This document shows positions 22,879 to 64,000 of a DNA stretch of 64,000 nucleotides, one piece after another. Source of the stretch: an uncultured Flavobacteriales bacterium (lineage in GTDB: Bacteria > Bacteroidota > Bacteroidia > Flavobacteriales_D > Crocinitomicaceae); the NCBI GenBank assembly GCA_903945495.1, contig CAJAVU010000055.1:1-64000 (forward strand), read 5' to 3'. The first letter of the stretch is position 1. Every line of letters begins with the position of its first letter. The notes beneath the pieces were generated by a model that had not been told where the DNA came from, did no database searches, and saw only the letters and a program-made list of their open reading frames with translations. The position numbers and the translations under genes are program-made.

Positions 22879-22930
22879 CATAGTATAAATACAATAAACT
22901 ATGAACAAAGAGAAGTACGAATGTACACCA

Positions 22931-23035
22931 ACTTATCTTTTCAGCCCTTCGACTGATTGGATTTGGCACCTATTCCGAGTATCGGAGGTTGCCAAGGTTT
23001 CACAGGGCCTAATCCCTCCACCTTTCTTCATAAGT
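22931..23035 (-). promoter_or_regulatory. SAM-I (S-box) riboswitch controlling metH
   Basis: Read on the minus strand, the leader matches the S-box core: ACTTAT opening P1, GGTGGAGGGA, GGCCCTGTGAAACC, TGGCAACC, a variable P3 arm, GGTGCCAAATCC, and GATAAGT closing P1. S-adenosylmethionine binding is expected to switch off the metH pair. No terminator hairpin with a T run lies between aptamer and start codon (53 bases), so control may act on translation or by another means. Confidence 0.92.
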
Positions 23036-23054
23036 TTATTTAAATGAACTGCGA

Positions 23055-35122: not shown

Positions 35123-35171
35123 GTAGGGACAGGTCGCGACCTGTCCCTACTGCACGCGACCTGTCCGTACG
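35123..35171. repeat. Palindromic intergenic repeat, copy 1
   Basis: A 28-bp perfect palindrome with half GTAGGGACAGGTCG occupies 35123-35150. A degenerate extra half (GCGACCTGTCCGTAC) follows at 35156-35170. Related copies lie at 37273-37332 and 40269-40372. It fills the space between the EI24-like and DoxX-like genes, which converge, and may form a hairpin in both transcripts. Confidence 0.9.
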
Positions 35172-36084: not shown

Positions 36085-36286
36085 TTTAAGATAAAATGTA
36101 CCAAAACGTTTTTTCTTGCGTTAAAGGGAAAACATCAAGAGTTTCTGGAGTAAAATCTGGAATGCCAACCGATCTGACAAGGCGCGGTGGAAAAGAGATG
36201 TGAGGCAGGGGCCTAAAAATAACTGTACACTTCCCCCCTTATCTTTTCTTGGTGTGTAATTGTTTAACCATTTAAATTTTTACACG

Positions 36287-37272: not shown

Positions 37273-37332
37273 TAGGGACAGGTCGCCTGCATTGCGATTC
37301 GGGCGAGTAGGGACAGGTCGCGACCTGTCCCT
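37273..37332. repeat. Palindromic intergenic repeat, copy 2
   Basis: A half copy (TAGGGACAGGTCGC, 37273-37286), the spacer segment GCATTGCGATTCG and a 24-bp perfect palindrome centred at 37320/37321 share sequence with the copies at 35123 and 40269. It separates a plus-strand and a minus-strand gene that converge. Confidence 0.9.
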
Positions 37333-40268: not shown

Positions 40269-40372
40269 AGACAGGGGCTCGCAATGCGATTCGCTCGCAG
40301 GAGCATGTCGCGTGTAGTACGGACAGGTCGTGTGTAGTACGGACAGGTCGCGACCTGTCCCTACACGCGACC
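40269..40372. repeat. Palindromic intergenic repeat, copy 3, with tandem 20-mers
   Basis: The block contains a GCAATGCGATTCG segment shared with copy 2, then CGTGTAGTACGGACAGGTCG repeated twice with one change. A 20-bp perfect palindrome centred at 40350/40351 and a tail CTACACGCGACC follow. The tail encodes the end and stop of the GNAT gene. Confidence 0.9.
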
Positions 40373-59556: not shown

Positions 59557-59826
59557 CTAATGTGATTCTGTCATATTGGCGGTTTCTATAAAAGACAAAA
59601 CCCTGAGACATTGATACATCTTAGGGGACTTCTAATCTAAACAGCCATAAGTGGATCGTCTTAAATATTTTTCAACACTTACAGTCTGTACTGGACCGAG
59701 CTTACGTATAAATTTGTATTGTTTTTCAATTAGTTAGCAGTTGTGAAAATGGGCTTGTTCGCCACATTGTTCACCTATAATCAATTGGTATTTGCGTGAA
59801 TATAAAGAACGAGTTCTGAAGCAAAG
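59557..59826 (-). repeat. GIY-YIG leader module, copy 1, ending after five codons
   Basis: Read on the minus strand it runs from the CTTTGCTTCAGAACTCGTTC edge (59826) through a CGGTC...GACTG hairpin and a CCCCTAAG...CAGGG hairpin to ATATGACAGAATCACATTAG. This encodes MTESH and then a stop at 59557. The order and sequences match copies 2 and 3, but the nuclease body is missing. The rest of the spacer (59827-60147) is AT-rich with the next promoter. Confidence 0.8.
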
Positions 59827-60009
59827 GTACTCCTTTGGCATAAAAAAGGACCTAAACTTAATATAAACCAAGATGCATTTAATGGTAATTAAAAAAAAAG
59901 ACAAAAAATGTAAAGGAGTGAAGAGTTTCCTTTTTATTTAAATAAATCATGACTTTCCAAAATTTCATGGATTAATTGATTGAATATTTCATTAAAAAAA
60001 TCAAAACGG

Positions 60010-60039
60010 TTGTAAAAATCTTTTAAACGTCTATATTCG
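60010..60039 (+). promoter_or_regulatory. Likely promoter of the PAS-LuxR gene
   Basis: TTG (60010-60012) and TATATTCG (60032-60039) are separated by 19 bases. The -7 box has one mismatch to TAnnTTTG. The start codon is 109 bases downstream. Confidence 0.5.
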
Positions 60040-60147
60040 TTCAATTTAAGGAATACAGCTTAAGGAAAAAGAGAATTATCTCAAATAAAAAAAACAATAT
60101 TTATAGATGGAAGCACCTGCATGATTCTGTAAAACACTAAAAAACCT

Positions 60148-60927
60148 ATGGGATCATACAACGAACTAGTCGAAATATGGGGTAATATCATTTCACCTAA
60201 AAGCGAAAGGGCCCCTACGGATATTTCTATCTATCTAAATCAATTACAAGATTTTTTTCATGTAGGTCCGTTTTATTTTTATGTTTTCGATACAACGAAT
60301 ACAACTTTCGAATACATAAGTGAAAATATGCAATCTCTTTTAGGGTATGACCCTAAGGTATTGACGGTTGCTGAATTCATCGATAAGATTCATCCAGAGG
60401 ATTTAAATTTTTTCATACAATGTGAAAACTCAACCGTAGAATTTATAAAAACCATTACACCTCAACAATTACTAAATTATAAAATAAGCTATGATTACAG
60501 AGTTCGCATGGCAAATGGTGGATTTATACGAATTCTTCAACAAGTAGTGACTATTGATATGGATCTGGAAACGGGAATGATTTTCAAAACTTTAGGAGTT
60601 CACACAGATATTTCACATATCAAATCTGTTGACTTTGGTACTGAACATTCAATTCTTTCATTCATCGGCATGAAAGGTGAAAAATCCTACATCAAAAAAA
60701 TAGATAAAAACCTTGTGATAAAGGACGATTTAAGTCAATTGTTTACCGAACGTCAAAAACAAATCATAGCTTGTCTCATGAATGGAATGAATAGTAAAGA
60801 AATTGCTGAAAAACTATTTATCAGCAGACACACTGTTGATACACATAGAAGAAGTATCCTTCAGATACTTGATGTGACTAATACTCATAAAATGATTTTA
60901 TTGCTTTCAAAAACTGGTTGGATATAA
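60148..60927 (+). CDS. PAS domain LuxR-family transcriptional regulator
   Basis: The 259-residue cytoplasmic regulator has a PAS domain (about 42-160) with FEYISENMQSLLGYDP, IHPEDLNFF and YRVRMANGGFIRILQQ, of the PAS_3 type. The LuxR-type HTH (about 195-255) reads LFTERQKQIIACLMNGMNSKEIAEKLFISRHTVDTHRR in outline. No kinase is nearby, so it probably senses a ligand through the PAS domain directly. Its target is unknown. Confidence 0.9.
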   Translation: MGSYNELVEIWGNIISPKSERAPTDISIYLNQLQDFFHVGPFYFYVFDTTNTTFEYISENMQSLLGYDPKVLTVAEFIDKIHPEDLNFFIQCENSTVEFIKTITPQQLLNYKISYDYRVRMANGGFIRILQQVVTIDMDLETGMIFKTLGVHTDISHIKSVDFGTEHSILSFIGMKGEKSYIKKIDKNLVIKDDLSQLFTERQKQIIACLMNGMNSKEIAEKLFISRHTVDTHRRSILQILDVTNTHKMILLLSKTGWI

Positions 60928-61043
60928 AGGCTAATCTTAAAATACTCAATAATGAGTAGTTAATAGTTGATAAGAATAAATAAATTTGGTTTGTCTTACA
61001 GCATTTTATGTTCGTTAGATTGTTGAATAAAACACTAATAACC

Positions 61044-62225
61044 ATGAAATTAATAAGTACAGTTCTACTTTTACTAACTTTTCAGATAGTATATAGTCAA
61101 CAAGTCGCATTGTCAAATCTAACTGATTTAACCAATTTGATAAATTCAAAAGCTTTACAAGTTGATAGTAGTTTAAAATCCAAAGGTTTCGTGAATACTG
61201 AAGTTAACGGTTTAACCTTTCTATATACAAAGAAGACTGAACAATTTATTTTTCAATCTAGTCCCAAAGAATTTGTATACGTCTTTGAAGACAAAGCCGC
61301 CTATTTAAAAATTAGCTCGCAAGTAGTTGAAAATAATCATTTACTAACTTCATCTGATACAATTGTTTTTAATAAAAAAAAATATTCAGCGTCTACATTT
61401 CAATCGACTTTTGGCACTGCTTCTTTATGGACAGATTATAATACGGTTAAAAAAACAACAAGTTACTTTATCAAATTAACTCAATTTGAGGTTACTGAAT
61501 CAGTTCAACACGAAAAGGTTGAACAAATATCCCAAACGTCTTCCCAAACCAAAATATTAGATAAATCAAAACTAATTGAAACGCAATCCAATAATAAACA
61601 AGTAGTTAAGTCACCTTTGAAAGATTCCACAAATCAACAAAAAAAGGTGAATAACGATATTAACAACACAATTCCAATAAAGAAAATAAAATTAACAGGA
61701 GGAATTGGTTTTTACGGATATGTAAACACACCTGGACCTGGGTGGAATGGAAATATTTACGATAAACCAGAGGGCCTAGTAGCCTACAATCTTGGAGCTG
61801 AAATCAGTAAGACAGATAAAATGAAGCAGGTGGGCAAATTCTACACGAACACTAGTTTGGATTTAAATTTAACTACATTTCTTGGGATGCAACGCTATTA
61901 TGTAGATGGAGTTACAGCAAGTTATCAAACAATCTATTTGTCAAAAAATTTCTTGACTTTGGGGCTTACTTCGGAAATAAGAAAAAAAAGAGAATCATTT
62001 TTAATGAGCTTTTGCCCAGGATTAAACTTGACATCAGGTAAAATTGAAGGGGTTGGAAGAAAGAGCTTTTTAACAGGAACCATTCAAATGGGAGAATATT
62101 ACCAACACAATTTCAGATCAAAAAAGAAAAGTAAAGAAACATTCTCTATGAGATGTGGTTTTGAACAATTTTTCTCTTTGAAAGGTGGTTATATTGGTCA
62201 ATTTGCGATTACAATTGTAATATAA
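61044..62225 (+). CDS. Outer-membrane/secreted protein, function unknown
   Basis: ATG 61044 is preferred because a signal peptide then starts the protein (MKLISTVLLLLTFQIVYSQ). The 393-residue product has a globular N-terminal domain, a Gln/Ser/Lys-rich linker (about 155-215) and a beta-rich C-terminal part with alternating hydrophobic strands ending in a hydrophobic residue. This suggests an outer-membrane barrel. I do not recognise the family. A lipoprotein gene follows after 11 bases. Confidence 0.6.
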   Translation: MKLISTVLLLLTFQIVYSQQVALSNLTDLTNLINSKALQVDSSLKSKGFVNTEVNGLTFLYTKKTEQFIFQSSPKEFVYVFEDKAAYLKISSQVVENNHLLTSSDTIVFNKKKYSASTFQSTFGTASLWTDYNTVKKTTSYFIKLTQFEVTESVQHEKVEQISQTSSQTKILDKSKLIETQSNNKQVVKSPLKDSTNQQKKVNNDINNTIPIKKIKLTGGIGFYGYVNTPGPGWNGNIYDKPEGLVAYNLGAEISKTDKMKQVGKFYTNTSLDLNLTTFLGMQRYYVDGVTASYQTIYLSKNFLTLGLTSEIRKKRESFLMSFCPGLNLTSGKIEGVGRKSFLTGTIQMGEYYQHNFRSKKKSKETFSMRCGFEQFFSLKGGYIGQFAITIVI

Positions 62226-62236
62226 AAAATAAAAAG

Positions 62237-62653
62237 ATGAGAATTACATTTTTAATATTTATAGTTTTCTTAGTGGGTTGTAACAAATCAAGTTTAGACG
62301 ACTTTGAAATTATTGAAGAAAAATTCAACACCAATAACACAAGCGGAGCTTGCCCTATTGGTGCATGGAAAAACACAACTGCCTGCGGAGGTGCTATTAC
62401 TCAAAATTTTGTTCTAAAATCTGATGGTACAGGTTGGGCTGACAATCCTGATTGCAACGGCATTTGTGATCCCCTTGTATGGCCTTTTACGTATGTGGTA
62501 TCAGGCAACACATGTTTTTTGTATTATGAAATTGCCCCAGATGTAAATTGTGGAGGAACATATTACCCTGTAAATCAGCCAAATGATGCAAGTTTTACAT
62601 TTAGCTGTGAAGGAAATTCCTTAGTCACGTCTTTTGGAACGTTCACTAAGTGA
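62237..62653 (+). CDS. Small lipoprotein with Cys-rich domain
   Basis: The 138-residue product has lipobox LVGC (Cys15). The mature domain is small and contains six further Cys (CPIG, TACGG, DCNGICDP, CFLYY, NCGG, SCEG) that could form disulfides. The order of GAWKNTTACGG, ... and SDGTGWADN suggests a lipocalin-like sheet, but this is uncertain. It is probably co-transcribed with the upstream 61044 gene. Confidence 0.6.
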   Translation: MRITFLIFIVFLVGCNKSSLDDFEIIEEKFNTNNTSGACPIGAWKNTTACGGAITQNFVLKSDGTGWADNPDCNGICDPLVWPFTYVVSGNTCFLYYEIAPDVNCGGTYYPVNQPNDASFTFSCEGNSLVTSFGTFTK

Positions 62654-62740
62654 TCTGCAACTACGGTAACTAATTTTGACATCACCTAATTGAGCATACC
62701 GTGCATGAAACGAGCAATTGTTAGACATTTAAATAAACAT

Positions 62741-62941
62741 ATGAAAAAATTTGCATCTTGATTGTTCATTATATTATTGAATATATCTAATTTGTACGCT
62801 CAAGACGGTGATCAATTTATTCATCTAGCATTTGGAAATCTACAATCCTCTGCTAACCGTGTCGCTTGGATGCTCGACTTTGGAAAAATAGGCTTTGATA
62901 GTAGTAGTAATTGCACATACGTTGCGGGTAAGGATAGTTAA
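62741..62941 (+). pseudogene. Broken small secreted-protein gene
   Basis: From ATG 62741 the frame reads MKKFAS, a TGA stop (62759-62761), and then continues LFIILLNISNLYAQDGDQF and on to TAA at 62939-62941. The sequence across the stop is a normal signal peptide, so the TGA most likely disables a small secreted protein. No ATG after the stop would restore the signal. Its end overlaps the decayed GIY-YIG frame on the other strand. Confidence 0.6.
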
Positions 62942-63141
62942 TTTCTTTCTAAAATAACAGCTTCAGATCGTATTTTCTTATCTGACAAAAGATCATTAAC
63001 CAAATAAAGATAAGGTTTTTTAGACAACACTTTTCCTGTGTTATGCATTGAAATTCGAGATTCAAAGTTTGAAGTTTGACCAATGCAATACTTGTCAAAC
63101 TTTTCCGAATAATTAATACAAACGTAATTCGATTCTGTTAT
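62938..63141 (-). pseudogene. Decayed GIY-YIG nuclease gene
   Basis: The minus-strand frame of 67 codons starts with ATA where the intact copy has ATG. It contains YVCINYSEKFDKYCIGQTS and RISMHNTGK, which align with the GIY-YIG core, and ends early at AVILERN. The usual lysine-rich C-terminal helix is absent. The start change and truncation indicate loss of function, though another start is conceivable. Confidence 0.65.
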
Positions 63142-63310
63142 ATCGGCGGTTTCTATAAAAGCAAAAACCCTAAGGATTTTAGCTTCGCTGCTGCCTTTGG
63201 CGGTGATACTCCTTAGGGTTTTCTAATTCCACAGCCATATGGACTTTTCTTTAATGCTTTTAATCCCCAAGAAACTTGGGGACGGTCTGGACTTGACCAG
63301 ATACCTTATT
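63125..63310 (-). repeat. GIY-YIG leader module, copy 2
   Basis: The leader contains a GGTC...GACC hairpin and a 13-bp stem AAAACCCTAAGGA/TCCTTAGGGTTTT. About 120 bases are identical to copy 3, from the ATTAAAGAAAAGTCCATATG stretch to the CCTTAGGG stem. It abuts the end of the intact nuclease gene and precedes the decayed frame. Confidence 0.85.
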
Positions 63311-63330
63311 TGTTTGGGAATTTTTGGTGT

Positions 63331-63606
63331 TTAGTGAAATTTCAAAACGCAATTTTTCGGAAGATTGATTAAATCTATTATCTGCAGTTTCGAATATTTT
63401 TTCAAAACCTTTTCTCTTTTTAACGCTGAGGATTTGTCATTCAACTCTTCAACATAGATCAAATTCCAAGGACAATAATTACTTGTATAAGGACTTTTTC
63501 CTTCGTTATGCTGTATTAAACGTTGAGTTGGATTCATTGAATAACCACGATAATATTTATCATGTTGTTCACTATAGATTGTATAAACATAATGTGAATC
63601 TGTCAT
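63331..63606 (-). CDS. GIY-YIG nuclease family protein
   Basis: The 91-residue protein (start at ATG 63606, MTDSHYVYTI; five more residues are possible from 63621) has the GIY-YIG core YVYTIYSEQHDKYYRGYS. The second half of the motif is YRG where YIG is usual, and then RLIQHNEGKSPYT and ALKREKVLKKYSKLQ follow. This is the small single-domain UvrC-like endonuclease family common in Bacteroidota, whose role is unknown. A structured leader lies directly upstream, and its 5' end is shared with two damaged copies. Confidence 0.85.
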   Translation of the reverse strand: MTDSHYVYTIYSEQHDKYYRGYSMNPTQRLIQHNEGKSPYTSNYCPWNLIYVEELNDKSSALKREKVLKKYSKLQIIDLINLPKNCVLKFH

Positions 63607-63879
63607 ATCGGTGATTACCATAAAAGCAAAAACCCTAAGGATTTTAGCTTCGCTGCTGCCTTTGGCGGTGATACTCCTTAGGGTTTTCTAATTCCACAGC
63701 CATATGGACTTTTCTTTAATGCTTTTAACAGTTGCGGTCTGGACGGGACCGATTGTGCAATGCTTTTCTAATTGGTATTCAGTATTTTACGACGTGATGT
63801 TTTTGTTTGTTCTCCCGTTTGTTCTCTTGAAAACTGGAGTTAATTGCATCACTATGAAAGAACGAGTTATGAAGTAAAG
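63597..63879 (-). repeat. GIY-YIG leader module, copy 3 (in front of the intact gene)
   Basis: On the minus strand it begins with CTTTACTTCATAACTCGTTC (63879), continues through CGGTC-CCGTCCA-GACCG (63736-63752) and a long AAAACCCTAAGGA/TCCTTAGGGTTTT stem, and ends in the first codons of the nuclease gene. Copy 1 shares both edges. The final bases of the window (63960-64000) resemble the middle of the module and may start a fourth copy. Confidence 0.85.
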
Positions 63880-64000
63880 ATAATAAATCGAAGTATTTGA
63901 AACTAAATTTAATGGGAAATCTTTAGAAACATAGGTGTTTTAATCCTGAAATCAGGACTGTTATAAAAGACTAAAACCTGATAAATTTCGATTGGGCACA

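Follow-up and report, generated by a model that had tools for sequence, protein, structure and literature searches.

A decayed tRNA-Asp array in an uncultured Flavobacteriales bacterium and its relation to a family of GIY-YIG nuclease genes at bacterial tRNA genes

The closest known system to the locus described here, and by analogy its best functional precedent, is SegB, a free-standing GIY-YIG homing endonuclease of T-even phages. SegB cuts inside tRNA genes at the motif RAWTSGAAC and drives tandem tRNA-segB amplification, in which the shortened 3' end of the nuclease gene is joined to the next tRNA (PMC13096335). We read RAWTSGAAC as the reverse complement of the T-loop sequence GTTCSAWTY. 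By sequence, the nuclease is closest to the single-domain GIY-YIG proteins of UPF0213 (COG2827) and to SLX1, for which neither a tRNA association nor a hairpin boundary was found described in the open literature searched.

The locus lies in a 64,000-nucleotide stretch, the window, at the start of contig CAJAVU010000055.1 (contig C55). The elements to which we relate it share with SegB a GIY-YIG nuclease gene beside tRNA genes; in one of their clades the junction is the T-loop, where cleavage may occur. They differ from SegB in being chromosomal, in encoding single-domain proteins of ~90 amino acids, in lying between an intact and a hairpin-broken tRNA, and in having clade-specific hairpins; they lack the separate DNA-binding region that I-TevI-like and SegB-like enzymes carry beyond the GIY-YIG domain. 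Of the features of free-standing homing endonuclease genes, the nuclease superfamily, occupied and empty alleles, and purifying selection were all found. As with integrative elements at tRNA 3' ends, insertion would fall inside a tRNA gene, displace the old 3' part and restore the tRNA, but the units are far smaller, have no integrase and use sites also in the anticodon arm and the trailer. IS200/IS605-type elements likewise pair a minimal nuclease gene with a terminal hairpin; the units differ from them in being tRNA-specific and in encoding a GIY-YIG instead of a HUH enzyme.

The tandem array in the window

Three minus-strand copies of a structured leader, followed respectively by an intact GIY-YIG ORF, a decayed frame and the truncated frame MTESH*, had been proposed in the initial annotation, and all three were verified in the sequence with these states. 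Their parts, all on the minus strand, are as follows.

63807–63901, copy 1: promoter-like and spacer region, common to copy 3 and five other species of the genus
63734–63749, copy 1: tRNA-Asp 3' end, final 16 nt (GTCCCGTCCAGACCGC), with the tRNA body absent; 100% match to tRNA-Asp nt 60–75
63693–63708, copy 1: trailer hairpin TCCA-UAUGGCUG-UGGA; loop invariant and stem covarying in relatives
63628–63687, copy 1: terminator hairpin of the tRNA-Asp trailer, its loop expanded by a 25-nt dispersed repeat (from the sequence)
63331–63621, copy 1: intact GIY-YIG nuclease ORF, 96 amino acids (PF01541, E = 2.4e-14)
63283–63293, copy 2: tRNA-Asp 3' end remnant, 11 nt (from the sequence; compare L021)
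63264–63282, copy 2: palindrome TCCCCAAGNNNCTTGGGGA, a pattern unique within the 64-kb window
63155–63261, copy 2: trailer with its terminator, matching copy 1 at all 107 nt (sequence and covariance model)
62941–63147, copy 2: decayed GIY-YIG frame, shortened and without a start codon; 33% identity to the copy 1 product
59684–59831, copy 3: ~160-nt upstream unit like that of copy 1; 84% identical to G016
59681–59696, copy 3: degenerate tRNA-Asp 3' end (GTCCAGTACAGACTGT; alignment A3)
59585–59660, copy 3: trailer and terminator, upper stem decayed and unpaired (model R1)
59557–59574, copy 3: MTESH* (ATG ACA GAA TCA CAT TAG), remnant of a GIY-YIG start (from the sequence)

Copies 1 (63620–63726) and 2 (63155–63261) are 100% identical over 107 nt, far above chance expectation; identity of the trailers beside so low an identity of the two proteins suggests recombination between trailers. 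Copy 3 has diverged and is recognized by the motif covariance model R1 with 60.5 bits (E = 3.1e-12). The copy 1 nuclease keeps the invariant Y, Y, R, H, E and K columns of its family, and its true start may be the ATG at 63606 (MTDSHYVYTIYS...). The type of palindrome seen in copy 2 recurs in broken tRNA-Asp copies beside the closest related nucleases (L042, L043 and L046).

A possible fourth copy near 63960 proved to be a terminator tail only: the matching stretch in relatives, cttttATAACrGTCCTnATTTC, stands directly 3' of a full trailer copy (L225). The genuine fourth trailer copy, found in a covariance model search, lies just beyond the window at 66199–66274 of the same contig (L259). Contig C55 holds four trailer copies, three of them in the window, with one intact nuclease and no intact tRNA-Asp in the array, and the window is read as a degraded relic, a decayed tandem array of tRNA-Asp-targeting GIY-YIG elements. 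The intact tRNA-Asp of the genome is on contig C65 (14333–14407; L135), has lost its trailer, and has on its 3' side an ORF for a putative tyrosine recombinase, as though an integrative element had inserted at the 3' end of this tRNA. Such an element, distinct from the nuclease units, may be what took the tRNA body away from copy 1.

The upstream unit of copies 1 and 3 is a candidate small RNA gene. This conserved non-coding unit of ~160 nt, composed of a promoter-like start, a GGTGAACAATGnGGCGAACAAGCC core, the tRNA-Asp 3' tail, the trailer and the terminator, is present in six species of the genus (L224–L227, L229), with unrelated genes on either side and no intact tRNA. The terminator loop contains a separate dispersed repeat, the 25-nt caccgccaaaggcagcagcgaagc; as a ~25-nt repeat, CACCGCCgAAGGCAGCAGCGAAGC, it occurs at 63645–63669 of the window and on contigs C17 and C112, and is also frequent in genomes G058 and G051.

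The trailer of tRNA-Asp genes

Nucleotides 5–58 of the leader are present in many genera, mostly directly 3' of tRNA-Asp(GTC) genes, as a search of relatives showed. The repeated leader is accordingly identified from its sequence as a host tRNA-Asp feature, made up of the tRNA 3' end, a trailer hairpin and a terminator. The trailer hairpin has a covarying stem and the invariant loop, and is followed by UUAGAAA and then by the terminator with its GUAUCA loop. Pairing is kept at 52/56 stem positions over 14 distinct stems, versus at most 43 in 2000 shuffles; the trailer is thus a genuine conserved RNA structure. Rfam scans of the leader at gathering and relaxed thresholds gave no family.

A covariance model of the leader, as the initial annotation had advised, was built and matches 53/120 genomes of the order. 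Among the 31 copies that it fetched, at 30 loci, most (19/31) come straight after an intact tRNA-Asp, with no nuclease in 17 of the 19; 6/31 follow a tRNA remnant and 6/31 are orphans. Only 3 of the 31 are followed by a GIY-YIG gene.

The conserved trailer hairpin was recorded on tRNA-Asp genes of the order at loci L014–L018 and L237–L262. In two genera, orphan trailers (L259, the copy just beyond the window; L234; L225:1355–1471; L029:84–200) have a promoter-like sequence of their own (TATCTTTGnAC...CTAAGCAATTAGA), and the tRNA-Asp trailer may occur as an independent small RNA as well.

Nuclease genes embedded in tRNA genes

A search of 120 genomes of the window's bacterial family, with the window protein as query and blind to tRNAs, was pooled with loci already fetched to give 105 unique GIY-YIG ORFs. 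An intact tRNA lies within 300 nt upstream on the same strand in 53/105, where our estimate of the chance expectation, from ~45 tRNA genes in 3 Mb, is ~0.2%. A tRNA 3' remnant lies upstream in 24/105, neither in 23/105, and 5/105 are without upstream sequence. The arrangement recurs across Bacteroidota at more than a dozen tRNA types. In an independent, named collection, the Met clade is represented by 79 loci from Bacteroidota, Ignavibacteria, Chlorobiota and Balneolaceae, and an intact tRNA-Met is directly upstream in 58/75 loci with upstream DNA. Nuclease phylogeny tracks tRNA identity, which changes 33 times on a tree of 120 nucleases versus 85 times with shuffled labels (0 of 200 shuffles).

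The ORFs, mostly of 80–100 amino acids, are covered by the GIY-YIG domain, and the catalytic Y, Y, R and E columns are invariant across the family alignment. A median dN/dS of 0.15 over 83 pairs, including pairs within tandem arrays, indicates purifying selection. The protein of the element matched PF01541 only and no HUH (Y1) transposase; the closest solved structures by sequence are 1ywl (E = 5.4e-15), 1zg2 (E = 1.1e-14) and SLX1 7cq2 (E = 4.2e-9). Viral contigs scanned with the window protein and with the Met-clade alignment contained no relatives, and phage matches to the nuclease are distant. An origin as phage cargo was rejected. No account of GIY-YIG genes behind bacterial tRNA genes was found in open-access papers, the literature covered, and these tRNA-embedded GIY-YIG elements appear to be widespread and, as a group, undescribed.

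In 89/100 nuclease–tRNA pairs, the nuclease has on its other side a further copy of that tRNA, which is incomplete. In 68 of these the broken copy consists of two tRNA blocks with an insert between them, palindromic in 60/68 (p <= 0.05 against shuffles); the palindrome background in the window is 0.22 per kb. The usual order is intact tRNA, terminator, nuclease, broken tRNA, terminator; the reverse, with the broken tRNA before and the intact tRNA after the nuclease, occurs mainly at Pro, Ser, Arg and Leu tRNAs. The nuclease stop codon is often supplied by the tRNA (TAG of the D-loop or U8A9G10) or by the palindrome. Such units, of ~350–450 bp, hold the GIY-YIG ORF alone and no integrase, and tandem arrays run to as many as eight units, each about 365 bp long (L174; also L101 and L175).

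The palindrome of the Met clade mostly lies between tRNA nt 36–38 and 47–50 across the phylum. Its inner pairs covary (pair 5 as C-G, T-A or G-C; pair 6 as C-G or T-A), a pattern that could also come from replication-time correction of imperfect palindromes and is not by itself proof of a selected hairpin. Similar palindromes are dispersed genome-wide, and chance placement at tRNA sites was rejected because this background, about 30 per 4.6 Mb, is far too sparse.

Occupied and empty sites, a comparison also proposed in the initial annotation, were both found at the orthologous folC–tRNA-Val locus, collected from 30 genomes, 28 of them readable and two with contigs ending too early. The nuclease is present in 8/28 (truncated in one) and the site is empty in 20/28. 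In G153, the stretch that follows the broken tRNA aligns with sequence immediately beyond the intact tRNA of the empty G160 (69% over 175 nt, E = 1.5e-13). The G153 terminator that separates tRNA from nuclease matches other occupied genomes well and empty ones weakly or at chance level. This one clean case has the footprint that would be expected had a tRNA 3' part, terminator, nuclease and hairpin been inserted together into the tRNA gene. Host flank after the broken copy was seen in this one occupied/empty pair only, the two terminators being alike in the other arrays.

At the same tRNA-Val, the nucleases of G153, G054 and G120 belong to the Val clade, and their hairpins, of the TCCCGAT..ATCGGGA type, join at nt 46. 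The nuclease of G139 comes from another clade, and its hairpin, TGCTGACC..GTCAGCA (TGCTGAC..GTCAGCA), joins at the T-loop, at ~nt 55. This hairpin type and the T-loop junction are common to Met, Ala and Val tRNA members of the G139 clade. Its exceptions are a Phe member (L059), with a different palindrome near the same point, and a His member, with the junction a few nt further 3'; in its Asp members the break falls in the trailer hairpin just behind tRNA-Asp. A T-loop junction was predicted in writing before further members of this clade were fetched, in searches that yielded only 4 genomes phylum-wide and 26 in the family. The new members bore the prediction out, with the hairpin joined to the T-loop on tRNA-Met, -Val and -Ala. 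In new loci such as L364–L369, L372, L373 and L378, on tRNA-Met or tRNA-Val, the hairpin abuts TTCRANTC or lies at most 1 nt from it; in L374 the stem is imperfect. In the sequences compared, hairpin type and junction position were thus shown to follow the nuclease clade and not the locus.

A proposed element and its alternatives

These observations probably reflect autonomous homing-type elements of ~350–450 bp that enter tRNA genes and restore the tRNA in doing so, the window holding a decayed array of them at tRNA-Asp. We infer both nuclease activity and mobility from comparative sequence data. A complete element would combine the 3' part of a tRNA and a terminator of its own, a single-domain GIY-YIG ORF whose start follows that terminator, and a terminal hairpin marking the junction with the displaced host tRNA; its left end, being identical to tRNA sequence, cannot be located. 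The nuclease would cut, or nick, the tRNA gene at the junction point, and repair from an occupied copy would insert the unit. Since the unit brings along the tRNA sequence 3' of the cut, a working tRNA would be retained, while the host's own tRNA remainder would be pushed downstream and the hairpin would keep that remainder non-functional, perhaps uncuttable. Tandem units would arise by recombination between tRNA or trailer repeats, as in the SegB-driven amplification of phage T6.

Several points count against such insertion and homing. About a fifth of the family's relatives have no tRNA, the palindrome lies at the tRNA 3' end in the window versus nt 51 in its nearest relatives, and the long DNA-binding region that typical homing endonucleases possess is absent from the ORFs; nor would a cut site inside the tRNA explain why the rebuilt tRNA escapes cutting. 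It is possible, if somewhat doubtful, that the elements form an autonomous, transposon-like class undescribed before, with a GIY-YIG nuclease as the only protein and a nuclease-specific hairpin as the end, in which each clade would recognize its hairpin and the matching tRNA point, insert there and rebuild the tRNA.

If homing-type insertion is correct, the tRNA genes of a whole phylum would be routinely parasitized by a tiny nuclease element that can reside in an essential gene because it brings the missing half along. Minimal GIY-YIG proteins of unclear function (UPF0213-like) would thereby be linked to mobility, the scattered broken copies of tRNAs would be accounted for, and compact tRNA-site-specific nucleases with cut sites readable from the junctions would become available. 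The leader itself is an ordinary tRNA trailer, though with a neat conserved hairpin; the nuclease family is the part that is out of the ordinary.

The initial annotation had proposed a selfish or RNA-guided unit with the RNA as its mobile part and the nuclease acting in cis or trans. The selfish, nuclease-bearing unit survives as the tRNA-linked family; a role of the RNA as mobile part or guide does not, the leader being the trailer of tRNA-Asp. The leader is structured and repeated beside nuclease copies, but the same RNA trails intact tRNA-Asp genes without a nuclease, the leaders of relatives at other tRNAs are unrelated to it, and a guide-like variable segment was not seen; OMEGA/IscB-like nucleases, by comparison, have a dedicated guide RNA beside them. 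Guidance or mobility of the RNA is thus extremely improbable and already largely refuted, and the leader as an element-specific RNA was rejected, the trailer belonging to the host tRNA-Asp. The initial annotation had itself foreseen that the leader might be a known RNA gene remnant plus terminator, which is what was found; its accompanying thought, that association with GIY-YIG genes might be absent elsewhere, fails decisively against a nuclease family that is tRNA-associated across the phylum.

Two further explanations dispense with a mobile nuclease. A GIY-YIG gene may have landed behind a tRNA once, with unequal crossing-over then producing tRNA–GIY–tRNA arrays and dispersed palindromes inactivating the spare tRNAs. 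The common tandem arrays, the genome-wide palindromes and the likeness of both terminators in most occupied loci are what it would predict; it is nevertheless unlikely, since a nuclease clade keeps its hairpin type and junction from one tRNA to another, two unrelated nucleases hold the same tRNA-Val within one genus, occupancy is patchy, and random palindrome insertions would be rare and not position-locked. Less probable still is that the repeats are att-site remnants of integrative elements that entered the tRNA-Asp 3' end via a tyrosine integrase, with the GIY-YIG genes as passengers. Copy 1 keeps exactly the 16-nt tRNA 3' end typical for such sites, the intact tRNA-Asp on C65 precedes the putative recombinase, and G146 has trailer copies about 11 kb apart; against this stand the small integrase-free units, their presence at so many tRNA types, and junctions in the anticodon arm or T-loop that are set by nuclease clade. 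An att-site origin may well account for the missing tRNA body of copy 1, leaving the nuclease family unaccounted for. Insertion by homing-type elements is thus the reading that we prefer for the family.

Other features of the window include a long perfect palindrome with a GGACAGGTCGCGACCTGTCC core, found three times within ~5 kb (35123–35150, 37309–37332 and 40341–40360), and two SAM-class riboswitches, at 22930–23036 on the minus strand and 36127–36230 on the plus strand (RF00162 and RF01725).
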